NCBI GenBank assembly: GCA_028876495.1
Contig: JAGWRO010000098.1
Location: 1 to 64,000, forward strand
Direction: 5' to 3'
Length of the DNA stretch: 64,000 bases
Source of the DNA: Bacteroidota bacterium
Lineage (GTDB): Bacteria; Bacteroidota; Bacteroidia; Chitinophagales; Chitinophagaceae
A program made the position numbers and the translations under genes. The notes under the pieces are model-generated. The model ran no database searches. It saw only the letters and a program-made list of their open reading frames with translations, and was not told where the DNA came from. This document shows, in pieces, positions 25,417 to 41,695 of the stretch; position 1 is the first letter of the stretch; each line of letters opens with the position of its first letter.

Positions 25417-26901
25417 ATGCAAAAACCTTCAATCATAGTAAAAGACCTTGTTGTTAAAACGCAGGACAATTCTGTGCTTGATGGAATTTCATTTTCACTT
25501 CGCTCCACTGAACATCTTGCTATTTTTGGTAATTCAGGAAGTGGAAAAACAGCTTTGGCAAAGGCTTTGGCTGGAAGAATTCATTACAACGGAAAAGTGT
25601 CTTTTGATTCAGGTTCAGAAAAAACGCGCGTTGAAATGGTGGAGCAACGTTATTCTTTTAAAAATTTATGCGGCATCTCAGAATTTTACTACCAGCAGCG
25701 TTTTAATAGTTTTGATTCGGAGGATGCACCAACTGTTTATGAAGAGTTAGTAAAAGCATCTTCAAAAGATAGTAAACAAGGAAATAACATTGATAATACT
25801 TTAGCAATTCTTGGAATTGAGCAATTGAAAAATTCTCCACTTATTCAACTGTCAAGTGGCGAACACAAAAGATTTCAACTGGCAAAAGCATTGGTAAATC
25901 CACCGCAGGTATTGCTTTTAGATACGCCTTACACCGGCCTGGATGTAGCCAGTGTGCAGGAACTTAACCAAATACTGGATGCTATTTCTAAGAAAGGCAC
26001 CCAAATTATTTTAATCCCCGGAACATTTCCTGTTCCTGATTTTATTACAAGCATTGCTTTTCTTGAAAATAAAAAACTGTCCTTCTTTGGCAATAAAGAA
26101 AATTACCATGCAGATGAGTTTAATCATGCAGATGAAAACTTTATTTACAATGCAGACTTGCTGCCTGATTCAAGTGAAACTACTCAGTTTGGATCAATAG
26201 TAGAAATGAAAAACATCCATTTAAATTATGGAGCGCACACCATTTTTACAGGACTTAGCTGGGAGATAAATGAGGGTGAAAAATGGTTATTAAAGGGCCG
26301 TAACGGCTCAGGAAAATCTTCGCTGCTGAGTATGATTACAGGAGATCATCCACAGGCTTATTCCAACGAAATTTATTTGTTTGGTAAAAGAAGAGGAAGT
26401 GGTGAAAGTATCTGGGACATCAAACAAAAAACAGGATTTATCTCTCCTGAATTGCATGCCTATTTCGACAAAAATGTTACCTGTTTCCAGGCAATTGGAT
26501 CAGGCTTTTTTGACACGATTGGCTTATTCAAAAAATTAAGTACTGCACAGTACAATACAATACTTCAATGGTTGGATTTTTTACGGGTTTCTCATGTGTC
26601 AACAAAACCTTTGCATTCAATTTCTGCCAGTCTCCAGCGAATGATCTTGCTTGCGAGGGCTTTGGTAAAAAATCCGCCATTGTTAGTTTTAGACGAACCA
26701 TGCCAGGGGCTTGATCAAAAACAAAGTACACAATTTGTGTCGCTGGTCGACAGCATTTGTTCAGGAACAAATAAGACATTGATTTATGTGAGCCATGACG
26801 AAAGAAATGTTCCCGAATGTATTGAAAAAGTATTTCAATTAGAAAAGAAAGGCGATCAGTATTATTCGATTATTGAACCTGCTACGCTTGCCGTAGCATA
26901 A
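25417..26901 (+). CDS. double-ABC ATPase, ModF-like
   Basis: This 494-residue protein has two ABC nucleotide-binding domains and no membrane segment. Domain 1 has Walker A GNSGSGKTALAK (about 37-48), signature LSSGEHKRFQLAKAL and Walker B VLLLDTPYTGLD. Domain 2 has GRNGSGKSSLLS, a degenerate signature (SISASLQRMILLARAL, with SAS in place of SGG) and LLVLDEPCQGLD. This resembles E. coli ModF-type soluble tandem ABC proteins. It lies 35 nt after leuA and 50 nt before leuB, so it is transcribed with leucine genes. No permease is near, and a role in leucine metabolism is unproven. Confidence 0.85.
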   Translation: MQKPSIIVKDLVVKTQDNSVLDGISFSLRSTEHLAIFGNSGSGKTALAKALAGRIHYNGKVSFDSGSEKTRVEMVEQRYSFKNLCGISEFYYQQRFNSFDSEDAPTVYEELVKASSKDSKQGNNIDNTLAILGIEQLKNSPLIQLSSGEHKRFQLAKALVNPPQVLLLDTPYTGLDVASVQELNQILDAISKKGTQIILIPGTFPVPDFITSIAFLENKKLSFFGNKENYHADEFNHADENFIYNADLLPDSSETTQFGSIVEMKNIHLNYGAHTIFTGLSWEINEGEKWLLKGRNGSGKSSLLSMITGDHPQAYSNEIYLFGKRRGSGESIWDIKQKTGFISPELHAYFDKNVTCFQAIGSGFFDTIGLFKKLSTAQYNTILQWLDFLRVSHVSTKPLHSISASLQRMILLARALVKNPPLLVLDEPCQGLDQKQSTQFVSLVDSICSGTNKTLIYVSHDERNVPECIEKVFQLEKKGDQYYSIIEPATLAVA

Positions 26902-26951: not shown

Positions 26952-28067
26952 ATGAACAAGAACATAACCGTAATTTCCGGAGATGGTGTTGGCCCGGAAG
27001 TAACTAATGAAACTTTAAAAGTACTTGGCGCAATTGCATTAAAATTTAATCACCATTTTAATTATACCCAATGTCTGATGGGAGGAATCGCAATTGAGAA
27101 AACCGGCGATCCGCTACCGCACGAAACTATAGACAGTTGTCTTAAAAGCGACGCGGTTTTATTAGGCGCTATCGGACTTCCAAAATATGATAATGATCCT
27201 TCTTTGAAAGTGAGGCCTGAACAGGGATTGTTACGATTAAGAAAAGGTTTGCAATTATTTGCCAACATTCGCCCGGTAACAACTTATAAATCACTCCACC
27301 ATCTTTCGCCTTTGAAAGCAAAGAATTTGGCTGATGTTGATTTTGTGATTTATCGTGAGCTTACAGGAGGAATTTATTTTGGAAAAAAAGAACTGAATGA
27401 AGAAGGAACTGAAGCTTCAGATCTTTGCATTTACAATAAAGATGAAATATCAAGAATAACACATTTGGCTTTTAAGGCAGCGCAAAAAAGAAAGAAAAGA
27501 TTAACGCTGGTTGATAAAGCAAATGTGTTGGAAACTTCAAGGTTGTGGAGAAAAAATGTTCAGGAAATTTCCACCACCTACCCTGATGTAAAAGTAGATT
27601 ATATGTTTGTGGATAATGCATCTATGCAGATCATTGTAAATCCGAAACAATTCGACGTAATCCTTACTGAGAATATGTTTGGAGATATTTTAAGTGACGA
27701 GGCAAGTGTGTTAAGTGGTTCATTAGGTTTATTACCTTCCTCATCAATAGGCGAAGTAAATGCCTTGTTTGAACCAATTCATGGATCATACCCGCAGGCT
27801 GCAGGAAAAGACATTGCCAATCCTGTGGGTTCCATTTTATCCGGCGCTTTAATGATGGAACATTTTGGATTACATGAAGAAGCGAAAATGATAAGAGACG
27901 CTGTCGACTGGACGTTGAGCAATGGTTTTGTGACGCAAGACATCGATCCGGTAAATTCTTATTTCACTTCTACCATTGGTGAATTAGTAAGTAATTATAT
28001 TTCAAATGATATTCCGCAAAACTCCAACATCAGCAATATGGCGCTGGGGCAAACGACTATCATTTGA
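26952..28067 (+). CDS. leuB: 3-isopropylmalate dehydrogenase, copy 1
   Basis: This 371-residue beta-decarboxylating dehydrogenase oxidises 3-isopropylmalate with NAD. Motifs are ISGDGVGPEV, the substrate loop LRLRKGLQLFANIRP, YRELTGGIYFG, DKANVLETSRLW, the metal-site DILSDEAS, and the NAD site FEPIHGSYPQAAGKDIANP. It closes the leuA-ABC-leuB group; a promoter and attenuator follow. A second copy at 40622 is clearly diverged (for example GHPKYDND against GLPKYDND), so the two may differ in substrate preference. Confidence 0.92.
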   Translation: MNKNITVISGDGVGPEVTNETLKVLGAIALKFNHHFNYTQCLMGGIAIEKTGDPLPHETIDSCLKSDAVLLGAIGLPKYDNDPSLKVRPEQGLLRLRKGLQLFANIRPVTTYKSLHHLSPLKAKNLADVDFVIYRELTGGIYFGKKELNEEGTEASDLCIYNKDEISRITHLAFKAAQKRKKRLTLVDKANVLETSRLWRKNVQEISTTYPDVKVDYMFVDNASMQIIVNPKQFDVILTENMFGDILSDEASVLSGSLGLLPSSSIGEVNALFEPIHGSYPQAAGKDIANPVGSILSGALMMEHFGLHEEAKMIRDAVDWTLSNGFVTQDIDPVNSYFTSTIGELVSNYISNDIPQNSNISNMALGQTTII

Positions 28068-28083: not shown

Positions 28084-28115
28084 TTTGTTTTTTTAAAAAG
28101 GTAATGCTAAGTTTG
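28084..28115 (+). promoter_or_regulatory. Bacteroidota-type promoter of the ilv operon
   Basis: -33 element TTTG (28084-28087), 20-nt spacer, and -7 element TAAGTTTG (28108-28115), an exact match to the TAnnTTTG consensus of the primary sigma factor of this phylum. Transcription should start about 28120-28125, shortly before the leader peptide ATG. Confidence 0.75.
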
Positions 28116-28134
28116 CTTTTCAATTCTTCACCTG

Positions 28135-28242
28135 ATGTTGAAAGGCAAAATTTATAATGGCATTAAAAATATTTCAGTGATCGTCATCGCTGTCATAGTC
28201 ATTATTATACCTTTTACCATTGGAGGAGGATCAGCTTGTTAA
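28135..28242 (+). CDS. ilvL: ilv operon leader peptide
   Basis: This 35-residue ORF is too short for routine calling. It starts MLKGKIYNGIKN and then has a block, residues 13-25, in which 11 of 13 residues are Ile or Val (ISVIVIAVIVIII), followed by PFTIGGGSAC. The core resembles the E. coli ilvGMEDA leader, which contains VVISVVVIIIP (recalled). It lies 20 nt after a consensus -7 element and is followed 20 nt later by a terminator, then by ilvE. This layout indicates a regulatory peptide whose translation senses charged tRNA-Ile and tRNA-Val. A small membrane peptide is the alternative, since the block is also hydrophobic, but position and RNA pairing favour attenuation. Confidence 0.85.
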   Translation: MLKGKIYNGIKNISVIVIAVIVIIIPFTIGGGSAC

Positions 28243-28291
28243 AACAATAAAATCAACAATAGCCCTGCCTCCAAAAGAAGCGGGGTTTTTT
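28220..28291 (+). terminator. ilv attenuator: terminator and antiterminator
   Basis: Terminator: CCCTGC (28263-28268) pairs with GCGGGG (28280-28285), extended past one mismatch by TC (28270-28271) with GA (28277-28278), loop CAAAA, then six T (28286-28291) and ATTTT. Antiterminator: TTGGAGG (28220-28226, inside leader codons 28-31) pairs perfectly with CCTCCAA (28268-28274), consuming the 5' terminator arm. A ribosome stalled in the Ile/Val block leaves TTGGAGG free, so the antiterminator can form; one that reaches the stop at 28240 covers it, so the terminator forms. Confidence 0.82.
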
Positions 28292-28315
28292 ATTTTAATC
28301 CCTTAAAAAAAATTT

Positions 28316-29215
28316 ATGTATTACAACAACGATACTTTTATCTATTGGAACGGGAAGATTATAAAGGCTTCCGAAGCAAAAATTGATTTGTACAGCGAAA
28401 CGATGCATTATGGTTATGGCGTTTTTGAAGGGATCCGTTCTTATAAAATAATAGATGGTGGAACAAAAATTTTTAAAGAAGTTGAGCATTTTGAAAGACT
28501 AAAAAATTCTGCACGTGCATTAAATCTTCCTTACGAATGGAACAGTGAAGAATTAATTGCTGCCACCTATGAAATTTTGAAGCTTAATAATATACAGGAT
28601 GCCTATATCCGGCCGTTAGTTTACGCTCCGGCAAATATGAGTTTCAGTGTGAACAACGAATCTTTTATCGTAATTGAAACCTGGCAAATGCAACCTTTTT
28701 TGGGAGAGAAATTATTAAATGTAATGACCTCTTCTTTTGAAAGGCCCAATCCGAAAGCTTTTAAAATCGAAGCAAAAGCAACCGGCCATTATGTAAATTC
28801 TATTCTCGCCAGCCAGGAAGCAAAAGCAAAAGGTTTTGATGAAGCTTTATTAAAAGACATGCAAGGATATGTAGCAGAAGCGCCGGGCGCGAATATTTTC
28901 ATGGAAAAAGATGGTGCACTTGTAACGCCTCAGTTAGGAAATATTCTTCCGGGAATTACGCGAGCAACTGTTTTTGAAATTTGCAATGAATTGAATATTC
29001 CGGTAATTGAAAAACAAATTACACTTGCTGAACTTCATGAAGCCGATAGCGCTTTCTTTTGTGGCACAGCCGCCGAAATCATTGGCATTGCTACACTTGA
29101 TAAAATTCCTTTCAAAAAAGACTGGAATGATTCACTCGGCAGCATTATTCAAAAAGAATATAAAGATCTTGTTACCGGAAAAACGAAAAAAGAACAATTA
29201 GAAGCGGCAAATTAA
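28316..29215 (+). CDS. ilvE: branched-chain amino acid aminotransferase
   Basis: This 299-residue class IV PLP aminotransferase interconverts Ile, Val and Leu with their 2-oxo acids. Visible are [14 protein letters not shown] (31-44), RPLVYAP, the PLP lysine at about 154 in [14 protein letters not shown], and the phosphate-binding turn [15 protein letters not shown]. It is the first structural gene after the ilv attenuator, 24 nt past the T run, so all transcription from that promoter is gated by the leader. Confidence 0.94.
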
Positions 29216-29258: not shown

Positions 29259-30962
29259 ATGAGCGAAACATTAGTAAATACCGAACTCAATAAATACAGT
29301 AAGACACTTACACAGGATGAAACGCTACCGGGAGCGCAGGCGATGTATTATGCTATTGGTTTTAAGGAAGAAGATTTTAAAAAAGCACAGGTTGGCATTG
29401 TAAGTATGGGCTGGGACGGAAATCCGTGTAACATGCACCTTAACGATCTTGCTACTTCGGTAAAGAAAAGCGTAAACAATGTGGAAGGATTACTGGGCCT
29501 TCGGTTTTACACCATCGGAGTAAGTGATGGAATCAGTATGGGAACAGATGGAATGCGCTTTAGTTTGGTAAGCCGCGATTTGATTGCTGACAGTATCGAG
29601 ACCAATGCAAGCTCGCAATATTATGATGCAATTGTAGCCATACCGGGGTGTGATAAAAATATGCCGGGTTCCATCATGGCAATGGGAAGGTTGAATCGTC
29701 CGGGGATTATGTTATACGGCGGCACTATTGCACCGGGGCATTATAAAGGAGAAGATTTAAATATTGTATCAGCTTTTGAAGCGTTAGGACAAAAGATCGC
29801 AGGCAACCTAGATGAAGCTGATTTTAAAGGAATTGTGCGCCATGCTTGTCCGGGGGCGGGAGCATGTGGCGGAATGTATACTGCCAACACGATGGCCAGC
29901 GCCATTGAAGCTTTGGGAATGAGTTTACCCAATTCCTCAAGCAATCCTGCGCTCAGCAAAGACAAAGAAAAGGAATGCGCGGCGATGGGAGAAGCGATAA
30001 AAAATATATTGGAAAAAGATATCAAACCAAGAGACATCATGACGCGCAAGGCATTTGAAAATGCAATTACGCTTGTGATGGTTATGGGAGGAAGTACCAA
30101 CGCTGTACTTCATTTGATAGCTATGGCAAAAAGTGTTGATGTAAAATTAACTCCGGATGATTTCCAAATGATAAGTAATAAAATACCCATGCTTGCCGAT
30201 TTTAAACCAAGTGGAAAATATCTGATGCAGGATTTGCACGATCATGGGGGTGTGCCCGCGGTAATGAAATACTTATTGGGCAAAGGTTTGTTGTATGGAG
30301 ATTGCATCACCGTAACAGGAAAAACCGTTGCTGAAAATTTGAAAAATGCTCCCGATCTTGATTTTGAAAAGCAGGATATTATTCGCCCGCTGGAAAATCC
30401 TATTAAAGCAACAGGCCATTTACAAATATTATATGGCAACCTTGCGGAAGGCGGAAGCGTTGCAAAAATTACAGGAAAAGAAGGCAACCGATTTGAAGGA
30501 ACTGCAAGAGTTTTTGACGGCGAGCATGATTTGATAAAAGGAATACAAAGCGGGAGAGTTCATGCAGGCGATGTAGTTGTAATCAGAAACATCGGGCCAA
30601 AAGGCGCGCCGGGAATGCCTGAAATGCTGAAACCGACGGGAGCTATTATCGGTGCGGGTTTGGGCAAATCTGTAGCTTTAATTACCGATGGAAGATTTAG
30701 CGGCGGCACACATGGTTTTGTCGTCGGACACATAACTCCTGAAGCTTTTGAAGGTGGCTTGTTAGGTTTGGTAAAAGATGATGATATTATTGAAATAGAT
30801 GCAGTGAAAAATACATTGAATTTAAAAGTGAGTGAAGATGAAATTGCCAAACGGAGAGAAGCATGGCAACGACCTCCATTAAAAGCAACCAACGGAGTTT
30901 TATATAAGTATGCAAAACTGGTGAAAGACGCCAGCCAGGGATGCGTGACCGATGAAAATTAA
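29259..30962 (+). CDS. ilvD: dihydroxy-acid dehydratase
   Basis: This 567-residue Fe-S dehydratase makes 2-oxoisovalerate and 2-oxo-3-methylvalerate. Cluster and active-site landmarks are [14 protein letters not shown] and [21 protein letters not shown], plus [12 protein letters not shown]-like and [21 protein letters not shown] near the C-terminus. Length is normal. It sits between ilvE and the ORF6N gene. Confidence 0.96.
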
Positions 30963-30999: not shown

Positions 31000-31584
31000 A
31001 TGCAGTTGCAGTCGATACAACATAAAATATTTGAAATAAGAGGACAGAAGGTGATGCTGGACTTCGATTTGGCTGCATTGTATGAAGTGGAAACAAGGGT
31101 ATTTAATCAAGCTGTGAAGAGAAATGTTGACAGTTTCCCTGAAGACTTTATGTTTAGGCTTACAACAAAAGAATGGAACAGTATGAGGTCACAAATTGTG
31201 ACCTCATACATTCAATCGACTGACAATGAAGCTGCTAACGAATCAGAATTTGTGATCAGTTTGCAGAAGAAAAGAAGAAAAGATCTATTGCCTTATGCGT
31301 TTACGGAACACGGGGTAACAATGCTTGCAAGTGTTTTAAAAAGCCCGATTGCAAGAAAAATGAATATCGCAATTGTAAGGGCATTTATTGCACTGCGCAA
31401 ATATGCAATTCAATACAAAGATATTCTTGAACAATTGGATGAATTACGTGAAAAAATCGGAAGCCATGATGCGCAACTAAACCAAATTTATGAAGCTTTA
31501 GAAAATATGTTGGATAAAAAAGTGGAAGAAGAAAATCAACTCGCAGCCTGGAAAAACAGAAAACCAATTGGTTTTAAAAAGTGA
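31000..31584 (+). CDS. ORF6N-domain protein embedded in the ilv operon
   Basis: This 194-residue protein has an N-terminal ORF6N (KilA-N-related) DNA-binding domain, recognisable by the IFEIRGQKVMLDFDLAALYEV block, FPEDFMFRLTTKEW, MRSQIVTS and AFTEHGVTMLASVL. A charged coiled-coil-like C-terminus follows (KDILEQLDELREKIGS). Such proteins are typical of phages and mobile islands. Here it lies 37 nt after ilvD and 27 nt before ilvB, co-oriented and without its own terminator. It looks like an inserted passenger, though a regulatory role in the operon is possible. Confidence 0.88.
   Translation: MQLQSIQHKIFEIRGQKVMLDFDLAALYEVETRVFNQAVKRNVDSFPEDFMFRLTTKEWNSMRSQIVTSYIQSTDNEAANESEFVISLQKKRRKDLLPYAFTEHGVTMLASVLKSPIARKMNIAIVRAFIALRKYAIQYKDILEQLDELREKIGSHDAQLNQIYEALENMLDKKVEEENQLAAWKNRKPIGFKK
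31181..31209. repeat. perfect 29-nt palindrome inside the ORF6N gene
   Basis: GTATGAGGTCACAA (31181-31194), one central A, and TTGTGACCTCATAC (31196-31209) are exact reverse complements. The palindrome encodes the conserved MRSQIVTSY block of the ORF6N domain. Confidence 0.9.
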
Positions 31585-31611: not shown

Positions 31612-33357
31612 ATGAATACGCTCGAATTAGAAGAAGAAAAAAAAGCAAAAGCCACTTCTAAAAAGACAATAAACGTTTCAGGTTCTGTTGCTCTTTTGGA
31701 GATCCTGATGGCTGAAAAAGTAGATACGATTTTCGGATATCCCGGCGGTGCCATCATGCCGATTTACGATGCATTATATGATTATAATGAAAAGATTAAC
31801 CATATTTTAGTTCGTCATGAACAGGGTTCAATACACGCTGCACAGGGATATGCGAGAACATCCGGAAGGGTCGGTGTTGTATTTGCAACCAGCGGGCCGG
31901 GCGCTACCAATTTGGTAACCGGTCTTGCAGACGCGATGATTGACAGCACTCCGCTGGTTTGCATTACAGGACAGGTTTTCGCGCATCTTTTGGGAACCGA
32001 TGCTTTCCAGGAAACAGACGTAGTAAATATTACCACGCCGGTAACCAAATGGAATTATCAAATTACGGATGCAACTGAAATCCCTTCAGTTCTGGCAAAA
32101 GCTTTTTATATCGCCAAAAGCGGAAGACCCGGTCCGGTATTGATCGATATTACCAAAAACGCACAAATTCAAAAATTCGATTTTGAAGGTTACACAACGT
32201 GCAACCATATACGCAGTTACCGGCCCAAACCAATCGTTCGTGAAGAATATGTTGTCGAAGCTGCCAGGTTAATAAACGAAGCCAAAAAGCCTTTTGTAAT
32301 TTTCGGGCAGGGCGTTATTCTTGGAAGCGCCGAAAAAGAATTTCAAAACTTTATTGAAAAAGGTGGCCTGCCTGCGGCATGGACGATTCTTGGATTGAGC
32401 GCTCTTGCAACGGATCATCCGCTGAATGTTGGAATGTTGGGAATGCACGGAAATTATGGCCCCAATGTTTTGACAAACGATTGTGATGTATTGATTGCTG
32501 TAGGAATGCGTTTTGATGATCGTGTTACCGGGAGACTTGATAAATATGCTAAGCAGGCAAAAATAATTCACCTTGATATTGATCCTTCAGAGATTGATAA
32601 GAATGTAAAAACAACCGTACCCGTTTGGGGCGATTGCAAAGAAACTTTGCCGTTGCTTACGAAGTTGATCGACAAAAAATCTCATGAAAAATGGTTGCAA
32701 AAATTTGAAGAATTAAAAGAGAGAGAAACTGAAGCTTGTTTTAAAAAAGACCTCACTCCCACTTCAGATGCACTTTCTATGGGAGAAGTGATCAATCTTC
32801 TAAATGAACTCACAGATGGCAATGCGGTAATTGTTTCTGATGTAGGCCAGCACCAGATGGTAGCTTGCCGTTATGCAAAATTCAAAAAATCAAGAAGCAA
32901 TGTAACTTCCGGCGGATTGGGTACAATGGGTTTTGGCCTGCCGGCAGCAATAGGCGCTAAATTTGGAGCTCCGGAAAGAACCGTAATTGCTGTAATTGGA
33001 GATGGCGGCTTTCAAATGACCTTGCAGGAATTAGGAACTATCATGCAAAACAACGTTGATGTAAAAATTGTAATTCTCAATAACGAATTCCTGGGCATGG
33101 TGCGTCAATGGCAGGAATTATTTAATGAAAGAAGATATTCTTTTACAGACATCCAAAGTCCCGACTTTGTAGCACTGGCCGCATCTTATCATATCAATGG
33201 AAAAAGAGTTTCAAAACGCGATCAGCTAAAGAGTTCTTTAAAAGAAATGCTTGACAGTGATGGAGCTCATCTTTTGGAGGTAATAGTTGGAAAAGAACAT
33301 AACGTATTTCCAATGGTGCCGCAAGGTTGCAGCGTTTCTGAAATCCGTTTATCTTAA
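31612..33357 (+). CDS. ilvB: acetolactate synthase, large subunit
   Basis: This 581-residue TPP enzyme forms acetolactate or acetohydroxybutyrate. TPP and substrate motifs are FGYPGGAIMPIYDAL, LVRHEQGSIHAAQGYARTSG (catalytic Glu), GPGATNLVTGLADAM, and the metal-binding GDGGFQMTLQELGT...NN block. The first 22 residues (charged, EEEKKAKATSKK) are an extension before the conserved core. It is followed after 27 nt by its regulatory subunit. Confidence 0.95.
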   Translation: MNTLELEEEKKAKATSKKTINVSGSVALLEILMAEKVDTIFGYPGGAIMPIYDALYDYNEKINHILVRHEQGSIHAAQGYARTSGRVGVVFATSGPGATNLVTGLADAMIDSTPLVCITGQVFAHLLGTDAFQETDVVNITTPVTKWNYQITDATEIPSVLAKAFYIAKSGRPGPVLIDITKNAQIQKFDFEGYTTCNHIRSYRPKPIVREEYVVEAARLINEAKKPFVIFGQGVILGSAEKEFQNFIEKGGLPAAWTILGLSALATDHPLNVGMLGMHGNYGPNVLTNDCDVLIAVGMRFDDRVTGRLDKYAKQAKIIHLDIDPSEIDKNVKTTVPVWGDCKETLPLLTKLIDKKSHEKWLQKFEELKERETEACFKKDLTPTSDALSMGEVINLLNELTDGNAVIVSDVGQHQMVACRYAKFKKSRSNVTSGGLGTMGFGLPAAIGAKFGAPERTVIAVIGDGGFQMTLQELGTIMQNNVDVKIVILNNEFLGMVRQWQELFNERRYSFTDIQSPDFVALAASYHINGKRVSKRDQLKSSLKEMLDSDGAHLLEVIVGKEHNVFPMVPQGCSVSEIRLS

Positions 33358-33384
33358 TTTCTTATTGAAAAAAAATTAAAAATC

Positions 33385-34023
33385 ATGAACATCGACGAAA
33401 TAAAAAATTCCAATAATTCTTCATTTACTACACCAGGCAAACAGGAATATACAATCACCGTTTATACCGAAAACCAGATTGGGATACTAAACAGGATCTC
33501 CATTATTTTTTCCCGAAGAAAAATTAATATTCACAATCTCAATACTTCGCCTTCAGAAGTACAAGGAATACATCGTTTCAATATTGTGATTGAAGAAACT
33601 GAAGAAGTATTAAAAAAATTAGTCAGGCAAATCGAAAAACAAGTGGATGTGTTAAAAGCCTACTATAATACAAATGATGAGATCATCTGGCAGGAAATGG
33701 CTTTGTACAAAGTACCGACAGAAGCCATTATGGAAAAAGCGAAAGTAGAAAGATTACTTCACCAGTTTGGCGCAAGAGTGGTAGCCATTCGTAAAGATTA
33801 TACCGTTTTTGAGACTACCGGCCATCGTGAAGAAACTGATAAACTGATTTCGGCGCTGGAACCTTATGGATTAATAGAATTTGTAAGAAGCGCCCGCGTA
33901 GCTATTATCAAAGAAAGTATGGGCTTCCATTCCAAAGTAAAAGAATTTGAACAAAGAGAACCAGGCAGTGAAGTAATAGAAAATGAATATTTAGATAAAC
34001 AGAGTGAAGTATTTACTATGTAA
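33385..34023 (+). CDS. ilvN: acetolactate synthase, regulatory subunit
   Basis: This 212-residue small subunit has an N-terminal ACT domain (ITVYTENQIGILNRISIIF, then KINIHNLNTSP) that usually binds valine for feedback inhibition, and a C-terminal ALS-ss domain. It is longer than the roughly 160-170 residues common in proteobacteria, because of an N-terminal tail and a C-terminal extension (VKEFEQREPGSEVIENEY). It is adjacent to ilvB as expected. Confidence 0.93.
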   Translation: MNIDEIKNSNNSSFTTPGKQEYTITVYTENQIGILNRISIIFSRRKINIHNLNTSPSEVQGIHRFNIVIEETEEVLKKLVRQIEKQVDVLKAYYNTNDEIIWQEMALYKVPTEAIMEKAKVERLLHQFGARVVAIRKDYTVFETTGHREETDKLISALEPYGLIEFVRSARVAIIKESMGFHSKVKEFEQREPGSEVIENEYLDKQSEVFTM

Positions 34024-34027
34024 AATA

Positions 34028-34036
34028 GCAGTAAAC
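34028..34036 (+). repeat. CAGTAAAC motif between ilvN and ilvC
   Basis: GCAGTAAACAAACAAATAA, 4 nt after the ilvN stop and 40 nt before the ilvC ATG, almost the same geometry as the ilvE-ilvD copy. Confidence 0.5.
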
Positions 34037-34067
34037 AAACAAATAAATTAAATTTTAAAACAAAAAC

Positions 34068-35123
34068 ATGGCGACATTAAATTTTGCAGGAACAGAAGAA
34101 AAAGTAGTAACACGGGAAGAATTTCCTTTATCAAAAGCGCAGGAAATATTGAAAGATGAAGTAGTAGCAGTAATCGGCTATGGTGTTCAGGGGCCGGGAC
34201 AGGCTTTAAACCAACGCGATAATGGTATCAACGTAATTGTTGGCCAAAGAAAAAATTCAAAGAGTTGGGACAAGGCAATCCAAGACGGATTTGTAGAAGG
34301 AAAAACTTTGTTTGAAATTGAAGAAGCGTTGGAAAAAGGAACCATTATTTGCTATTTGCTAAGCGATGCAGCACAAATTGCAATGTGGCCAACCGTAAAA
34401 AAACATTTGACTCCCGGAAAAGCCTTGTACTTTTCTCATGGCTTTGGAATTACTTATAATGATCAAACCGGAATTGTTCCGCCAAAAGATGTAGATGTAT
34501 TTTTAGTGGCACCCAAAGGTTCAGGAACTTCTTTACGCAGAATGTTTTTGCAAGGCCGTGGATTAAACAGCAGCTACGCGATTTTCCAGGATGCAACAGG
34601 GAAAGCCTTTGACAGAGTGGTTGCATTGGGTATTGCAATTGGTTCAGGATATTTATTTGAAACTGATTTTAAGAAAGAAGTATTCAGCGATCTTACAGGC
34701 GAGCGCGGAACTTTAATGGGCGCAATCCAGGGAATTTTTGCTGCGCAATTTGAAGTGCTTCGCAAACATGGCCACTCCCCTTCTGAAGCGTTTAATGAAA
34801 CCGTTGAAGAACTTACACAATCATTAATGCCTTTGGTTGCTGAAAACGGAATGGATTGGATGTATGCAAATTGTTCAACAACCGCGCAACGCGGCGCTTT
34901 GGACTGGTGGAAAAAATTCCGTGATGCAACACTTCCTGTATTTAATGATCTATACGAAAGTGTGGCTTCAGGTAAGGAAGCTGAAAAATCTATCAGTTCC
35001 AATTCACAGTCCGATTACCGCGAAAAATTAAATGAAGAATTAAAAGAACTTCGTGAAAGTGAAATGTGGCGTGCAGGAAAAACCGTTAGAAGTTTGAGGC
35101 CTGAAAACCAGGAGCCGGCATAA
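34068..35123 (+). CDS. ilvC: ketol-acid reductoisomerase
   Basis: This 351-residue class I (single knotted domain) KARI carries out isomerisation and NAD(P)H reduction in the Ile/Val pathway. The Rossmann motif is VIGYGVQGPGQALN, the cofactor-specificity loop is VGQRKNSKSWDKA, and the knotted domain has SDLTGERGTLMGAIQGIFAAQFE. A strong hairpin follows the stop. Confidence 0.94.
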   Translation: MATLNFAGTEEKVVTREEFPLSKAQEILKDEVVAVIGYGVQGPGQALNQRDNGINVIVGQRKNSKSWDKAIQDGFVEGKTLFEIEEALEKGTIICYLLSDAAQIAMWPTVKKHLTPGKALYFSHGFGITYNDQTGIVPPKDVDVFLVAPKGSGTSLRRMFLQGRGLNSSYAIFQDATGKAFDRVVALGIAIGSGYLFETDFKKEVFSDLTGERGTLMGAIQGIFAAQFEVLRKHGHSPSEAFNETVEELTQSLMPLVAENGMDWMYANCSTTAQRGALDWWKKFRDATLPVFNDLYESVASGKEAEKSISSNSQSDYREKLNEELKELRESEMWRAGKTVRSLRPENQEPA

Positions 35124-35132
35124 ATTAATTTA

Positions 35133-35166
35133 GTAAGGTTGCCAGCCTTCGAGTTGGCAACCTTAC
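35133..35166 (+). terminator. strong hairpin between ilvC and ilvA
   Basis: Perfect 12-bp arms GTAAGGTTGCCA (35133-35144) and TGGCAACCTTAC (35155-35166) enclose a 10-nt loop. Only a short T run (ATTTTGG) follows. It could be a partial terminator or an mRNA processing or stabilising element setting the ilvC/ilvA ratio. Confidence 0.65.
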
Positions 35167-35194
35167 ATTTTGGTCAACAATTATTATTCAATTA

Positions 35195-36481
35195 ATGAGC
35201 AGTAATATTCATACAAAAAATCATGAATTCAGCTACCATCCGGTCTTTGACGGATTAGGAGTTGCTGATGCATCTGCTCGTTTAAAAAATGTGGTGAACA
35301 GAACACCGCTCGATCTCAATAGAAATTTGTCAACGAAATACCAATGCAATATTTTTCTAAAAAGAGAAGATTTGCAGGTAGTACGATCGTACAAACTTCG
35401 CGGTGCGTATAACATGTTGAGCACTTTGCCGGAAGAAGAATTAAAGAAGGGAGTTGTTTGTGCCAGTGCCGGAAATCACGCACAGGGCTTTGCTTACTCA
35501 TGCAAAAAATTAAATTGCCACGGCGTAGTTTTTATGCCGGTTATCACACCAAAACAAAAAGTAAAACAAACGAAAATGTTTGGTGAAGATGCGATTGAAA
35601 TTAAGTTGGTTGGTGATTCTTACGAAGAATGTGCGGAAGCTGCGATCCAATATTGTAAAGAGAACGATAAAACATTTATTCCTCCATACGACAATTATAA
35701 AGTCATTGAAGGGCAGGCTACTGTTGGATTGGAGATATTAGAAGATCTTACACACATCGATTATTTATTTGTTCCTGTCGGCGGTGGCGGACTGGCATCG
35801 GGAGTGGGTTCTTATTTCAAAACGTTTTCTCCTTCCACAAAAATAATAGGTGTAGAACCTGCCGGTGCTCCTTCCATGTCTGAAGCTTTCAAAGCGGGAC
35901 ATCCGGTTACTTTAAATCACATTGAACATTTCGTTGATGGTGCATCGGTTAACCGCGCGGGCGACATCACCTACTCCATTTGCAAAGAAGTTTTGAATGA
36001 AATGCATCTCGTGGATGAAGGGAAAGTCTGCACCACTATTTTAAAATTATATAACGAAGACGCTATTGTCGTGGAGCCTGCAGGTGCTTTATCCATAGCG
36101 GCGCTTGATGATTACAAAGAAGAGATTAAAAGTAAAAACGTGGTTTGCATCATCAGCGGCGGCAACAATGATATTGATCGTATGCAGGAAATCAAAGAAA
36201 GATCGCTGCAGTACGAAGGGTTAAAACATTATTTCCTGGTACGCTTTGCACAAAGGCCCGGAGCTTTGAAGGAATTTGTCAACGATGTTTTGGGACCAAC
36301 AGACGACATCACCCGATTTGAATACATTCAGAAAAATAACAAAGAAGCGGGACCAGCGCTTGTTGGTATTGAATTGGGATCAAAAAAAGATTACGAAAAA
36401 CTAAAAAATAATCTTAATCACCATAAAATAAATTATACAGAATTAAAGAAAGATGATGATGCCTTTGGTTATTTGGTATAG
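35195..36481 (+). CDS. ilvA: threonine ammonia-lyase, biosynthetic
   Basis: This 428-residue PLP enzyme makes 2-oxobutyrate from threonine, the entry to isoleucine synthesis. The PLP lysine lies in VRSYKLRGAYNM, the phosphate loop in VPVGGGGLASG, with CASAGNHAQG and GGNNDID also present. A single C-terminal ACT-like regulatory domain follows (HYFLVRFAQRPGALKEFVNDVLG), the short allosteric form. Its presence means isoleucine synthesis does not have to rely on a citramalate route. Confidence 0.94.
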   Translation: MSSNIHTKNHEFSYHPVFDGLGVADASARLKNVVNRTPLDLNRNLSTKYQCNIFLKREDLQVVRSYKLRGAYNMLSTLPEEELKKGVVCASAGNHAQGFAYSCKKLNCHGVVFMPVITPKQKVKQTKMFGEDAIEIKLVGDSYEECAEAAIQYCKENDKTFIPPYDNYKVIEGQATVGLEILEDLTHIDYLFVPVGGGGLASGVGSYFKTFSPSTKIIGVEPAGAPSMSEAFKAGHPVTLNHIEHFVDGASVNRAGDITYSICKEVLNEMHLVDEGKVCTTILKLYNEDAIVVEPAGALSIAALDDYKEEIKSKNVVCIISGGNNDIDRMQEIKERSLQYEGLKHYFLVRFAQRPGALKEFVNDVLGPTDDITRFEYIQKNNKEAGPALVGIELGSKKDYEKLKNNLNHHKINYTELKKDDDAFGYLV

Positions 36482-36546: not shown

Positions 36547-37950
36547 ATGAATAATACTTCCAGTACGCTGTTTGACAAAGTTTGGGATTCGCATGTGGTA
36601 CGTAAAATTGAAGATGGCCCTGATGTTTTTTTTATTGACAGGCATTTTATCCATGAAGTTACAAGTCCTGTTGCTTTTGGCGGCCTGGAAAACAGGGGCT
36701 TGAAAGTAATGTTCGCCGACAAAACATTTGCTACGGCCGATCATAATACGCCTACCATTAATCAGCATTTACCCGTGCAGGATCCTCTTTCAGCCAACCA
36801 GTTGAAAGCCTTGGAAACGAATTCCGCAAAATATGGCATTTCACATTGGGGACTAAATAATCCAAAGAATGGAATTGTGCATGTTGTTGGCCCCGAGAAC
36901 GGAATTACCCTTCCCGGAATGACGATCGTTTGCGGCGACTCTCATACTTCCACTCATGGTGCTTTCGGCGCTATTGCCTTTGGAATCGGCACTTCGGAAG
37001 TCGAAATGGTACTTGCCTCACAATGTATCATGCAGCCCAAACCTAAGAAAATGCGCATCAACGTAAACGGCAAATTGGCTAAAGGAGTAACAGCAAAAGA
37101 TGTAGCGCTTTATATTATATCCAGGTTAACCGCAGCAGGTGCGACCGGTTATTTTGTAGAATATGCCGGTGAAGTTTTTGAAAACCTGAGCATGGAAGGA
37201 AGAATGACCGTTTGCAATATGAGCATAGAAATGGGCGCGCGTGGAGGAATGATAGCTCCTGACGAAACAACTTTTGCTTATTTAAAAGGAAAAGATAAAG
37301 CGCCAAAAGGTGAAGCATGGGATAAGTCACTTGCTTATTGGAAAACTTTAAAAACGGACAGTGAAGCAACATTTGATAAGGAATTTAATTTTGATGCTGC
37401 CGATATTGAACCGATGATCACTTTTGGCACCAATCCCGGGATGGGCATGGGAATCAGCAAACATATTCCGGTTTCGCAAGATACTGCCAGCGGAAATGCG
37501 AGCTACGAAAAATCCCTTAATTATATGGGATTTCATGAGGACGAAGCGATGCTGGGAAAGAAGGTAGATTACGTATTTATAGGCAGTTGTACCAACGGAA
37601 GAATTGAAGATTTTCGCGCATTTGCTTCGATCATAAAAGGAAGAAAAAAAGCCGAACATGTCACTGCATGGATCGTTCCGGGCTCGCATGTAGTAGAGCA
37701 ACAAATAAAGGAAGAAGGTATCCTGGATATTTTAACGGAAGCGGGGTTTCAATTACGTCAACCCGGTTGTTCCGCATGTTTGGCCATGAATGATGATAAA
37801 ATTCCCGCAGGTAAATATGCAGTGAGTACCAGCAACAGGAATTTTGAAGGAAGACAAGGCCCGGGAGCGAGAACGATGCTGGCAAGCCCGCTGGTAGCGG
37901 CAGCAGCGGCAGTTACCGGAGTTGTTACCGATCCACGCGAACTGCTTTAA
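36547..37950 (+). CDS. leuC: 3-isopropylmalate dehydratase, large subunit
   Basis: This 467-residue aconitase-superfamily subunit binds the 4Fe-4S cluster. Cluster cysteines lie in [13 protein letters not shown] and in [11 protein letters not shown]. Other landmarks are [15 protein letters not shown] and the C-terminal [19 protein letters not shown]. It isomerises 2- to 3-isopropylmalate together with LeuD, encoded 48 nt downstream. Confidence 0.96.
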
Positions 37951-37998
37951 TGTATCATGTAATTACAACTTTAAACTAAAAACTACGAACTAAATAAC

Positions 37999-38595
37999 AT
38001 GGCTTACGATAAATTTACAGTGCTTACAAGCACCGCGGTTCCAATGCCCATTGAGAATGTGGATACAGATCAAATTATTCCTGCGCGCTTTTTAAAAGCT
38101 ACTGAACGCAAAGGTTTTGGTGATAATCTTTTTCGCGATTGGAGATACAATGCAGATGAAACACCTAAAAAAGATTTTGTTCTCAACAATCCTGTTTATT
38201 CAGGAAAAATTTTGGTAGGTGGCAAAAATTTTGGAAGCGGCAGTAGCCGCGAACATGCAGCATGGGCCATTTATGACTATGGTTTTCGCGCAGTAGTTTC
38301 CAGTTTCTTTGCTGATATTTTTAAGAACAATTCAATAAATGTTGGTATTCTTCCTGTGCAGGTAAGTGAAGAATTTTTGATAAAAATTTTTAGTGCTATT
38401 GAAGTAGACCCTAAGGCGCAATTTGAAATAAACCTCCCGGATCAAACTATTACCATCCTTTCAACTGGTGAACAAGAATCGTTCGATATTAACGGCTATA
38501 AAAAACACAACCTGATGAATGGCTTTGATGATATAGATTATTTGCAGGCCATGAAAGAAGACATCCAATCATTTGCTGAAAAGAGTTTATATTAA
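37999..38595 (+). CDS. leuD: 3-isopropylmalate dehydratase, small subunit
   Basis: This 198-residue swivelling-domain subunit pairs with LeuC. It shows NVDTDQIIPARFL near the start and the LeuD signature GGKNFGSGSSREHAAWA at about 74-90. It ends 21 nt before the leuA2/cimA start codon chosen here. Confidence 0.95.
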   Translation: MAYDKFTVLTSTAVPMPIENVDTDQIIPARFLKATERKGFGDNLFRDWRYNADETPKKDFVLNNPVYSGKILVGGKNFGSGSSREHAAWAIYDYGFRAVVSSFFADIFKNNSINVGILPVQVSEEFLIKIFSAIEVDPKAQFEINLPDQTITILSTGEQESFDINGYKKHNLMNGFDDIDYLQAMKEDIQSFAEKSLY

Positions 38596-38616
38596 TTGAG
38601 ATCACAACAAACAAAA

Positions 38617-40140
38617 ATGCCAAAAAAACAGCGATACATTGAGATAATGGATACTACACTTCGTGATGGTGAACAAACGAGTGGAGTTTCATTTTCTGCT
38701 TTGGAAAAATTAACTATTGCCAAGCTATTATTGACAGAATTAAAAGTGGATCGGATTGAAATTGCTTCGGCCCGGGTGTCGGAAGGTGAGTTTGATGCTG
38801 TGAAAAAAATTACGAAGTGGGCAAAAGCAAACGGTTTACTGGATAGAGTGGAAGTATTGACTTTTGTTGATGGAACTGTTTCTGTAGAATGGATGATAAA
38901 AGCAGGCGCTAAAGTGATGAACCTTCTTACCAAAGGCTCTCTCAATCATTTAACCCATCAACTTAAGAAAAAACCGGAACAGCATTTTACTGAAATCGCA
39001 GAAGTGATACAACTCGGAAGGAAAAAAGGTATTGACTGCAATGTCTATCTGGAAGACTGGAGTAACGGTATGCGCAATTCAAAAGATTATGTGATTCAGT
39101 ATCTTGATTTTCTTTCTACGCAGCCGGTGAAACGTATCATGCTTCCGGATACATTGGGCGTTTTGACTCCTTCTGAATCTTTTGAATTTGTTTCTGAAAT
39201 TGTACAACGTTATCCCAAAAAACATTTCGATTTCCATGCTCATAACGATTACGATTTGGCAACAGGAAATGTTTTTGAAGCCTTGAAAGCCGGTGCTTCC
39301 GGAATTCATCTGACAGTGAATGGAATGGGAGAACGTGCAGGAAATGCAGCCTTGGCAAGCACTATAGCGGTCATTAACGATTTTATGCCGGAATTAAAAA
39401 CATCGGTTTCAGAAAAATCTTTGTACCGGGTAAGTAAATTGGTAGAAACTTTTTCCGGCTTTCGCATTCCGGTGAATAAGCCGGTAGTGGGCGAAAATGT
39501 ATTCACTCAAACGGCCGGAATACACGCAGATGGTGATAAAAAAAATAATCTTTATTTCAGCGATCTGATGCCGGAACGCTTTGGCCGGCAGCGGAGGTAC
39601 GCACTTGGAAAGACCAGTGGAAAAGCAAATATTGAAAACAATCTTTCGCAATTAGGCATTCACCTTTCCGACCAGGATCTCAAAAAGGTAACGCAACGAA
39701 TTATTGAATTGGGCGATCGCAAAGAAATAGTTACCCAGGCAGATCTTCCTTACATTATTTCAGATGTACTGGATAGTGTGGCCATTGAGCAAAAAGTGCA
39801 GATAGAAAATTATGTATTGACACATTCCAAGGGTTTAAATCCTTCCGTAACATTAAGAATTTGTATTGAAGGTGAGTCGTTTGAAGAACATGCCCAGGGA
39901 GATGGACAATATGATGCTTTTATGAATGCGCTAAAGAAGATATATAAACAAAAGAAAATAGCACTTCCTCTGTTAACTGATTATGCAGTAACTATTCCAC
40001 CCGGTGGAAAAAGCGATGCCTTTTGCGAAACTATTATTACCTGGAGGCATAATGGCAGAGAGTTTAAAACACGCGGGCTCGACAGCGATCAAACGGTTGC
40101 AGCTATTAAGGCAACATGGAAAATGTTGAATAGTATTTAG
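38617..40140 (+). CDS. 2-isopropylmalate/citramalate synthase with regulatory domain
   Basis: This 507-residue Claisen-type synthase has the barrel ([49 protein letters not shown]) and a full C-terminal LeuA dimer/allosteric domain from about 380. It is clearly diverged from the short LeuA at 24215. Bacteroidota commonly carry both forms, and the longer one may make citramalate, giving 2-oxobutyrate from pyruvate, rather than isopropylmalate. The sequence alone does not decide this, so no symbol is assigned. The start at 38617 (MPKKQRYIEI) is preferred to the frame opening at 38596. Confidence 0.85.
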   Translation: MPKKQRYIEIMDTTLRDGEQTSGVSFSALEKLTIAKLLLTELKVDRIEIASARVSEGEFDAVKKITKWAKANGLLDRVEVLTFVDGTVSVEWMIKAGAKVMNLLTKGSLNHLTHQLKKKPEQHFTEIAEVIQLGRKKGIDCNVYLEDWSNGMRNSKDYVIQYLDFLSTQPVKRIMLPDTLGVLTPSESFEFVSEIVQRYPKKHFDFHAHNDYDLATGNVFEALKAGASGIHLTVNGMGERAGNAALASTIAVINDFMPELKTSVSEKSLYRVSKLVETFSGFRIPVNKPVVGENVFTQTAGIHADGDKKNNLYFSDLMPERFGRQRRYALGKTSGKANIENNLSQLGIHLSDQDLKKVTQRIIELGDRKEIVTQADLPYIISDVLDSVAIEQKVQIENYVLTHSKGLNPSVTLRICIEGESFEEHAQGDGQYDAFMNALKKIYKQKKIALPLLTDYAVTIPPGGKSDAFCETIITWRHNGREFKTRGLDSDQTVAAIKATWKMLNSI

Positions 40141-40149
40141 AGGAAGAAA

Positions 40150-40164
40150 GGCAAGAGGCAAGAG
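40150..40164. repeat. left inverted repeat flanking the four-helix gene
   Basis: GGCAAGAGGCAAGAG, followed by another GGCAAGGAGAG unit to 40181, immediately upstream of the small gene at 40194. It matches the right repeat in reverse orientation. Confidence 0.7.
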
Positions 40165-40193
40165 ATGAAAGGCAAGGAGAGAAAACATAAAAA

Positions 40194-40550
40194 ATGAGTA
40201 TCAAATCATATAGAGATCTTTTTATTTGGCAAAAGTCAATGGTTTTAGTAACAGAAATTTATTCAATCACCGGAATTTTCCCTGTTTCTGAAATATATGG
40301 TTTGACAAATCAGTTGAGAAGAAGCGCAGTTTCAATTCCAAGTAATATTGCCGAAGGGTATGTTAGAAATTCAACAAATGATTATAAACGATTTTTACAA
40401 ATAGCAGTTGGATCTTTATATGAATTACAAACACAAGTAGAAATTGCTTGTAACCTTAAATATATTGAAGTCGAAAAGATTAGAGAAGTTTCCAATTTAA
40501 GTATTGAGATCGATAAAATGTTATATTCAATTATTCAAAAAATAAAATAA
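40194..40550 (+). CDS. four-helix bundle protein (S23/IVS, Avd-like)
   Basis: This 118-residue protein belongs to the four-helix-bundle family first seen in 23S rRNA intervening sequences and shared with Avd proteins of diversity-generating retroelements. Hallmarks are SYRDLFIWQKSM at the N-terminus, the central LTNQLRRSAVSIPSNIAEGY, and FLQIAVGSLYELQTQVEIA. No reverse transcriptase or variable repeat is nearby. It sits between leuA2 and leuB2, flanked by inverted GGCAAGAGGCAA / TTGCCTCTTGCC repeats, which suggests insertion as a small cassette. Molecular function of stand-alone members is unknown. Confidence 0.9.
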   Translation: MSIKSYRDLFIWQKSMVLVTEIYSITGIFPVSEIYGLTNQLRRSAVSIPSNIAEGYVRNSTNDYKRFLQIAVGSLYELQTQVEIACNLKYIEVEKIREVSNLSIEIDKMLYSIIQKIK

Positions 40551-40578
40551 GCAATTGTGATCAGGAAAAACGGCGGTT

Positions 40579-40610
40579 CTCTTTGCCTCTTGCCTCATAA
40601 CTTTTGCCTC
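40579..40610. repeat. right inverted repeat flanking the four-helix gene
   Basis: CTCTTTGCCTCTTGCCTC (40579-40596) plus a further TTGCCTC to 40610, ending 11 nt before the leuB2 ATG. TTGCCTCTTGCC is the exact reverse complement of the left repeat core. Confidence 0.7.
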
Positions 40611-40621
40611 AAAAATCAAGA

Positions 40622-41695
40622 ATGGCAAACAAGAATATTTTAATTGTTCCCGGAGATGGAATAGGACAGGAAGTAACAGCAGTTGGAAAAAAAGTGTTGG
40701 ATAAAATAGCAGAAAAATTCGGACATACGTTCGCGTATGATGAAGCAATGATCGGGCATGTAGCGATTGAAGCAACAGGAAATCCTTTACCTGATGAATC
40801 ACTCGAGAAAATGCGCAACTCAGATGCAGTGTTGTTTGGTGCCGTTGGTCATCCCAAATACGACAACGATCCTTCTGCAAAAGTACGACCTGAACAAGGT
40901 TTGCTAAAGATGAGAAAAGAATTAGGCTTGTATGCAAATATTCGCCCTATTAAATTGTTTGATGAATTACTCGGTGCTTCCAGCATCAAACCCGAAATAC
41001 TAAAGGGTGCAGATATTTTATTTTTCCGGGAATTAACAGGAGATATTTATTTTGGTGATAAAGGAAGAAAAAATAATGGCGACACAGCTTATGATATAGC
41101 AGAATACAGCCGTTACGAGGTTGAACGTATTGCCCGCAGAGCCTTTGATGCAGCGCGTACGAGGCGAAAAAAATTATGTTCAGTTGACAAAGCGAACGTT
41201 CTTGAAACCTCCCGCCTGTGGCGGGCAGTAGTGCAGGAAGTTGCAAAAACTTATCCTGATGTCGAAGTAGAACATCAGTTCGTAGATGCAACAGCGATGC
41301 TGTTGATAAAAGATCCACGCAGATTTGATGTAGTCGTGACAGCCAATCTTTTTGGAGACATTCTAACCGATGAGGCTTCGCAAATTGCCGGCTCAATGGG
41401 CATGCTGGCAAGCGCATCTGTTGGTGATGGCACAGGCGTGTATGAACCCATTCATGGTTCGGCCCATGATATCACCGGAAAAGGATTAGCTAATCCTTTG
41501 GCATCCATTTTATCTGCCGCATTATTATTGGATATTTCTTTTAATATGAAAGCCGAATCAGAAGCGGTTATTAACGCTGTTGATGTGGTATTGAAAGCCG
41601 GATGGCGAACAAGAGATATTGCGGATGCCCAAACTCCTGCCGATAAAATATTAGGAACGGAAGCAATGGGAGCAGCGGTTCTGAAGGAGTTATAA
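40622..41695 (+). CDS. leuB: 3-isopropylmalate dehydrogenase, copy 2
   Basis: This 357-residue paralogue of the enzyme at 26952 keeps all catalytic motifs: VPGDGIGQEV, LKMRKELGLYANIRP, FRELTGDIYFG, DKANVLETSRLW, DILTDEAS and YEPIHGSAHDITGKGLANP. The start at 40622 (MANKNILIV) is preferred; the upstream in-frame ATG at 40604 lies within the inverted-repeat region. It is the last gene of the cluster. Of the two copies this one looks nearer to classical LeuB (RPIKLFDELLGASSIKPE), but substrate division is untested. Confidence 0.92.
   Translation: MANKNILIVPGDGIGQEVTAVGKKVLDKIAEKFGHTFAYDEAMIGHVAIEATGNPLPDESLEKMRNSDAVLFGAVGHPKYDNDPSAKVRPEQGLLKMRKELGLYANIRPIKLFDELLGASSIKPEILKGADILFFRELTGDIYFGDKGRKNNGDTAYDIAEYSRYEVERIARRAFDAARTRRKKLCSVDKANVLETSRLWRAVVQEVAKTYPDVEVEHQFVDATAMLLIKDPRRFDVVVTANLFGDILTDEASQIAGSMGMLASASVGDGTGVYEPIHGSAHDITGKGLANPLASILSAALLLDISFNMKAESEAVINAVDVVLKAGWRTRDIADAQTPADKILGTEAMGAAVLKEL

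Follow-up and report, generated by a model that had tools for sequence, protein, structure and literature searches.

The window, a 64,000-nucleotide stretch of DNA from a member of the Chitinophagaceae, carries an ilv/leu cluster in which NCBIfam matches give the order leuA, ABC gene, leuB, ilvE, ilvD, an unmatched gene, ilvB, ilvN, ilvC, ilvA, leuC, leuD, a citramalate-synthase-like gene, and leuB2. Between leuB (26952 to 28067) and ilvE (28316 to 29215, + strand), which encodes a branched-chain aminotransferase above cut-off with NCBIfam PRK06606 and ilvE_I, lies a leader region with all of its features on the + strand. It begins with a promoter-like site of the Bacteroidota type, TTTG-20-TAAGTTTG (28084 to 28115; TTTG at 28084 to 28087 and TAAGTTTG at 28108 to 28115), which is followed by an open reading frame (ORF) of 35 codons, MLKGKIYNGIKNISVIVIAVIVIIIPFTIGGGSAC (28135 to 28242, stop codon TAA at 28240 to 28242), whose product has no Pfam match. 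Residues 13 to 25, read from the putative control codons (28171 to 28209), are Ile or Val at 11 of 13 positions, the last Ile codon being ATA (28207 to 28209); the ORF is short and carries a run of codons for the products of the genes downstream. A first-pass annotation of this DNA had described the promoter, the ORF, and its Ile/Val run in front of ilvE, and direct reading confirmed all of them.

The same annotation placed TTGGAGG in the ORF from codon 28 onward and its complement, CCTCCAA, in the 5' arm of an intrinsic terminator. TTGGAGG is present, although it begins in codon 29; terminator and CCTCCAA both exist, but CCTCCAA (28268 to 28274) falls mostly in the upper stem and loop, not in the main 5' arm. 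The predicted terminator lies between the leader and the first gene at 28261 to 28291 (stem, 28261 to 28268/28280 to 28287; T-run, 28286 to 28291), as indicated by sequence, fold, and covariation. An automated terminator scan called none at the leader region, probably owing to a limit of 8 nt on the loops it accepts. The antiterminator 5' arm (region 2) is TTGGAGGAGG (28220 to 28229), and its 3' arm (region 3) is CCTGCCTCCAA (28264 to 28274), which overlaps the terminator 5' arm; TTGGAGGAGG pairs with CCT-G-CCTCCAA over 10 bp with one bulged G (G28267), giving a duplex of −14.6 kcal/mol. Because this pairing is longer than that of TTGGAGG with CCTCCAA, the antiterminator and terminator folds are mutually exclusive. 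In the predicted attenuator, ilvE is the first controlled gene.

Among 5,000 dinucleotide-shuffled versions of the 420-nt region preceding ilvE, none contained an ORF with an equal Ile/Val run, and when the arm segment was shuffled 500 times, one shuffle gave an arm/terminator duplex at least as strong. Across the window, the strict promoter pattern is no rarer than chance (4 matches versus 6.9 expected). Before the leaders of related loci (see below), a slightly relaxed form was found in 25 of 52 leader-bearing loci, the window's own included, versus 15 of 2,600 mononucleotide shuffles, and the strict form was found in 15 of the 52 versus 4 of 2,600. In the window's own genome, GGAGGNGG-N15-45-GCCTCC matched twice, as did a reversed control; among the matches inspected, the one in the window alone shows leader anatomy.

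Leaders in related genomes

A search for ilvE over the genus and family matched 67 distinct genomes, the window's own included, and the upstream DNA was read for 63. Outside these 63 loci are G022, in which the module was found before ilvE later, and G062, G065, and G067, which were left unread. An Ile/Val-rich leader with arm and terminator precedes ilvE in 52 of the 63 loci; an ORF with an Ile/Val run was found in 21 of 2,520 shuffles of the same upstream regions and in 1 of 30 control regions upstream of pheA in the same family.

The first-pass annotation had suggested that related genomes should carry the same module and had named relatives that keep ilvE without it as the opposing observation. 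Both were found. Leader, antiterminator, and terminator recur at the 52 loci with compensatory re-pairing and conserved ribosome geometry (see below), and the leader is absent from the other 11: L005, L010, L011, L012, L014, L018, and L019, which make up 7 of the 15 same-genus relatives read, and L040, L054, L057, and L063. The upstream sequence of L010 comprises only 226 nt. Since leuB, ilvE, and ilvD stand in a row in 8 of 8 leaderless loci with downstream DNA, the 11 loci read as lineage-specific losses rather than as a sign that the signal is false. A displaced attenuator was sought with model R1. For 10 of the 11 leaderless loci, the upstream DNA (0.9 to 18.8 kb, with several stretches ending at contig ends) gave two weak matches (E values of 0.23 and 0.26), and the 8 leaderless loci that include sequence downstream of ilvE gave no match up to an E value of 1. 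No convincing leader was seen in the 700 nt preceding leuA, a stretch read for 8 of the 11; ORFs with 7 Ile/Leu/Val residues in 9 precede leuA in L143 and L145. In G023, this search returned a strong R1 match, but far from ilvE. There, an apparent ilv attenuator (L084/L153, 96.7 bits) stands before a lone 98-amino-acid ACT-domain gene, in a 14-kb stretch with no protein match to the window's ilv/leu cluster at an E value of 1e−10.

Among 12 named relatives, 8 have the leader and 4 have none, with 4 of the 12 apparently duplicating G-numbered contigs already read. In the ilvD-led operons of other family members, the module is found before ilvD (L117, L119, L120, L121, L122, L129, L136, L138, and L139), this gene having been named by eye through its likeness to the L088 protein (Pfam ILVD_EDD_N). 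From these comparisons, the ilv attenuator appears to be a real, family-wide element that was lost in some lineages. A Pro codon follows the final Ile/Val/Leu in 37 of the 52 loci, as it does in Escherichia coli ilvL.

Alternative pairing and compensatory change

The leader consensus reads ATTATTATTCCTGCnnnnnnnGGAGGTGG, a stop codon, 16 to 39 nt to the stem, ACCCGCCTCC-loop-GAGGCGGGT, and a T-run. Within it, GGAGGTGG and CCGCCTCC form an 8-bp pairing, and the antiterminator arm is similar in sequence to the terminator 3' strand. The terminator columns are 92.6% paired, with both sides changed in 5 of 9 pairs, and 0 of 500 shuffles were as good. Antiterminator cells are 90.4% paired in fixed columns versus 47 to 62% when slid; just 2 pairs are changed on both sides in these columns, a number that 101 of 500 shuffles reach. 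Mean energies of the arm/terminator duplex are −16.7 kcal/mol with own partners, −15.2 kcal/mol with foreign partners, and −8.2 kcal/mol with a shuffled arm, and 0 of 10,000 permutations were as good as the own-partner sum in a test that ignores the tree. No foreign partner beat the own terminator in L016, L017, L052, L062, and L065. The leaders thus have an alternative antiterminator that excludes the terminator and is kept by covariation, with the own terminator out-paired by more than half of the foreign ones in 12 of 52 loci.

Several arms have re-paired: AGAGGAGC with GCTTCTCT in L052, TGGAGGA with TCCTCCA in L062 and L065, GCAGGAGG with CCTCCTGC in L013, L015, L016, and L017, and GGCGGG with CCCGCC in L041. 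L051 keeps the arm, though in a different reading frame, and the arm of L027 begins in the stop codon. Re-pairing in a new register is stronger evidence than the antiterminator covariation in fixed columns. Because compensatory changes preserve the pairing of the arm, including where its frame differs or where it lies at the stop codon, selection acts on the RNA and not on the peptide tail.

These observations bear on a quite different reading, in which the product of the ORF is a genuine membrane peptide, small and hydrophobic, and the hairpin serves only to end the upstream leuB transcript. In its favor are the hydrophobic composition and conserved core of the peptide and the position of leuB, immediately upstream in 43 of 43 loci examined. 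Nevertheless, the RNA arm persists where the C-terminal residues are frameshifted (L051) or where it starts in the stop codon (L027), it re-pairs with the terminator across loci, and a promoter-like site precedes the ORF in 25 of 52 loci, all of which makes this reading highly improbable.

A predicted ribosome-mediated switch

We consider the leader before ilvE very probably a classical transcription attenuator of the ilv/thr type that works through the ribosome. Transcription would start just upstream, and a ribosome would translate the 35-codon leader. If charged tRNA-Ile or tRNA-Val were scarce, the ribosome would stall within codons 13 to 25; a ribosome whose A site holds the last Ile codon would reach forward to about 28219 and leave free TTGGAGGAGG, which could capture the terminator 5' side once transcribed, so that polymerase would continue into ilvE. 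If amino acids were plentiful, the ribosome would go on to the stop codon, which lies 10 nt past the arm, and cover TTGGAGGAGG; the terminator would then form, and transcription would end prematurely near 28291. The first-pass annotation had arrived at this logic for ilvE, and the comparison among the 63 loci lends it support.

Its further claim, that a stall frees the arm and the stop codon covers it, agrees with both sequence geometry and folding calculations. In 36 of 52 loci, a GGAGG-type core lies exactly 15 nt past the first base of the last Ile/Val/Leu codon. The ribosome footprint, known from E. coli, extends about 12 to 13 nt beyond the A-site codon. By this geometry, the arm is just free when the last Ile/Val/Leu codon is in the A site and covered when the ribosome is at the stop codon. 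In the early state, when the terminator 3' arm has yet to be transcribed, the 5' arm is held upstream with a probability of at least 0.8 in 51 of 52 loci when the ribosome is stalled and of at most 0.2 in 44 of 52 when it is at the stop. The same kind of calculation gives the same early-state picture for E. coli ilvL, thrL, and trpL; ilvL with another stem definition gives just 0.51 when stalled, and E. coli hisL fails (0.83 stalled and 0.96 at the stop).

With the full hairpin and a stalled ribosome, equilibrium folding favors the terminator in 49 of 52 loci, the window being among the 3 exceptions, and for this reason any switch must be kinetic. The trp attenuator is taught as a kinetic decision. 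Many ribosome-mediated attenuators, though not all, have a protector or pause hairpin (1:2). The window sequence itself can form one; over the 52 sequences, the mean for this hairpin (−4.30) is no better than that in shuffled spacers (−4.25).

Control might instead be translational, with the hairpin hiding the ilvE start or GGAGG serving as a Shine-Dalgarno site. GGAGG matches the Shine-Dalgarno core perfectly, and 6 nt past the arm there is a TTG (28236). However, the frame of this TTG is only 4 codons long, the distance from the terminator stem to the ilvE match ranges from 19 to 143 nt, and a T-run follows the stem; moreover, Shine-Dalgarno sites are not recognized by Bacteroidia ribosomes, as stated in passages of PMC9976891 and PMC6847099. 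We give translational control almost no credence. The same property of Bacteroidia ribosomes may be the reason why a GGAGG arm is tolerated in these leaders.

Candidate leaders upstream of other amino acid operons

Inspection of the DNA upstream of further genes in the window's own genome revealed a His leader, MKQNSHIHHHHILPHG, before hisG; a Phe/Tyr leader, MTITKANTGFFYFSSYFRNSPGSAC, before pheA; and a Trp-Trp leader, MKVNNTYNSWWHTI, before trpE, each with a terminator and a complementary arm. R1 missed them, since its matches in this genome beyond the ilv leader do not rise above chance (next best, 29.7 bits and an E value of 0.14). Their arm duplexes were reached by 10 of 500 shuffles for his, 58 of 500 for phe, and 0 of 500 for trp, and the phe arm alone is therefore not significant. 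The at-stop value of the trp leader is 0.45, not near 0. Among 30 pheA loci of the family, 27 or 28, depending on the exact stretch taken, contain an ORF in which Phe/Tyr make up at least 6 of 8 residues; the phe leader arm of G033 is GGAGGCGGGA/TCCCGCCTCC, and most others have, by eye, CCGGGA/TCCCGG or part of it.

A T-box, a riboswitch, or a protein antiterminator could also operate the ilv terminator and leave the Ile/Val run incidental, as a terminator before an amino acid operon is common to all of these. Yet the window matches no Rfam family at the gathering score, its best sub-threshold leader-type match being Thr_leader with 20.4 bits versus 55, and codon runs match the genes elsewhere as well (His before hisG, Phe/Tyr before pheA, and Trp-Trp before trpE). 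Such a device is hardly believable here, and we retain ribosome-mediated attenuation.

A class-level search with R1 matched 36 of 295 genomes, among them G000 and G088, which belong to the model's own alignment. This count is probably low, because stricter filters were used at the class level (12 candidates scored per genome). From 40 places, 28 loci were inspected, and 18 were judged by eye to be credible leaders: 9 Ile/Val, 3 His (hisG), 4 Thr (aspartokinase), 1 Phe (pheA), and 1 possible Tyr. The remaining 10 resemble ordinary terminators or chance matches. Nine downstream proteins were checked with Pfam and the rest named by eye; 7 were above the gathering score, or just so, and the ACT protein of L086, the aminotransferase of L089, and the hydroxylase of L100 were below it. 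In L100, the possible Tyr leader, MISTVNNYYYYHTPQAER, and a terminator precede a gene whose product resembles aromatic amino acid hydroxylases (20.5 bits over the first 90 residues; cut-off, 22.7).

We tentatively propose, with less than even confidence, that the Bacteroidota possess a general network of ribosome-mediated attenuators, comprising ilv, his, phe, and trp here and thr, possibly tyr, and tandem ilv in relatives, and that it is independent of the enterobacterial one. If so, stop codons, frames, and arm sequences would have been freely exchanged while the pairing logic was kept, and the ilv arm of one family would be a near-perfect Shine-Dalgarno sequence, GGAGGNGG.

In four named Chryseobacterium genomes (L166, L167, L168, and L170), two R1 matches stand in tandem upstream of ilvE; those of L167 are MNFTNQKNIIVISIAAVVIYNSQETAF and MYSLFAVIIIVIIIPLCV. 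In L167, the sole Chryseobacterium locus tested, none of 500 shuffles reached the duplex of the first leader arm; that of the second, with the stall codon set to the Pro after the run, is not significant (187 of 500). In the window's own genome, a Thr-rich ORF, MKRPISYITLSAFATLSIPAITITTTR, precedes an aspartokinase-like gene with a homoserine dehydrogenase domain (L176; G000:C61). It has no clear terminator and is perhaps a decayed thr leader.

Comparison with described attenuators

In anatomy, the ilv leader agrees with the attenuators of E. coli ilv and thr, and a response to amino acids is predicted from this agreement. Like the leader of the window, E. coli ilvL (ilvXGMEDA) is rich in Ile/Val with a VVVIIIP core, has a terminator before the operon, and carries its complementary arm directly after the codon block (MTALLRVISLVVISVVVIIIPPCGAALGRGKA). 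Unlike it, ilvL has its own arm and terminator sequence, read by eye as GTGCGGGG/CCCCGCAC, and scores just 26.9 bits (E value of 0.0077) with R1, a comparison that yields no evidence of common descent. E. coli thrL is alike in having its arm in the last leader codons, at the stop, perfectly complementary by eye to the terminator 5' arm; it differs in its Thr/Ile codons and arm sequence and scores 22.1 bits with R1 (E value of 0.052). The leader falls outside the curated enterobacterial ilv leader family, with no Pfam match and no Rfam match at the gathering score. We take the Bacteroid-trp motif RF01692 to be a trp attenuator; in contrast to it, the window matches no Rfam family at the gathering score. 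This motif is presented, in the relevant part of PMC2864571, as a predicted cis-regulatory RNA of Bacteroidetes.

Closest by phylum are the candidates of Flavobacterium psychrophilum, for which passages of PMC9723704 report strong clues for leader-peptide attenuation before amino acid operons; the likeness is one of description, without sequences or ilv anatomy. Small ORFs reminiscent of leader peptides are mentioned in a passage of PMC7366714. In 2010, PMC2965389 stated, in the section concerned, that none was known outside the Proteobacteria and Actinobacteria before its own Firmicutes case. In Corynebacterium, a different phylum, an ilvB-II upstream ORF or an ilvBNC attenuator controls the ilv operon according to excerpts of PMC10272879 and PMC11857589; the ilv operon there is likewise under upstream-ORF or attenuator control, a likeness drawn from description. 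Among the open PMC articles that the searches listed, no title or opening of an abstract describes this ilv leader in Chitinophagaceae; some of the ground may already have been treated by Lopatovskaya 2010 and Vitreschak 2004.

The loci collected here provide a concrete, alignable attenuator set and a covariance model in a phylum for which the literature, to judge from the passages of PMC9723704 and PMC7366714, only hints at such control. They also raise the question of how attenuation, which needs coupling of translation to transcription, would work if ribosomes ignore Shine-Dalgarno sites. Such switches are scarcely described for the Bacteroidota in the parts of the literature cited, and the ilv leaders would be good material for a phylum-wide survey.

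Extent of the operon

All genes downstream of ilvE discussed here are on the + strand. NCBIfam identifies ilvD (29259 to 30962) and ilvB, ilvN, ilvC, and ilvA (31612 to 36481), of which the last four are presumed to share the ilvE transcript. Operon membership is uncertain for leuC, leuD, the citramalate-synthase-like gene, a 23S_rRNA_IVP gene, and leuB2 (36547 to 41695). A 14-bp hairpin between ilvC and ilvA (35133 to 35166, + strand) is a possible internal terminator or processing site; because of it, and of the 23S_rRNA_IVP gene inserted before leuB2, attenuator control may not extend unbroken over the 13 kb to leuB2, as the first-pass annotation had proposed it would.

The cluster also contains genes of other kinds. 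The 23S_rRNA_IVP (four-helix) gene (40194 to 40550) lies between the citramalate-synthase-like gene and leuB2 and is flanked by a perfect 13-nt inverted repeat (40149 to 40161/40583 to 40595; span, 40149 to 40604); gene and repeat together look like a small mobile cassette. Between ilvD and ilvB lies a gene with an ORF6N domain of the phage-regulator type (31000 to 31584; Pfam, 113 bits), inside which is a perfect 14-bp inverted repeat (31181 to 31209). Between leuA and leuB lies a two-domain ABC ATPase gene (25417 to 26901, + strand), ModF-like but below the NCBIfam cut-off; a ModF-like ABC ATPase is also present in the relative L145.
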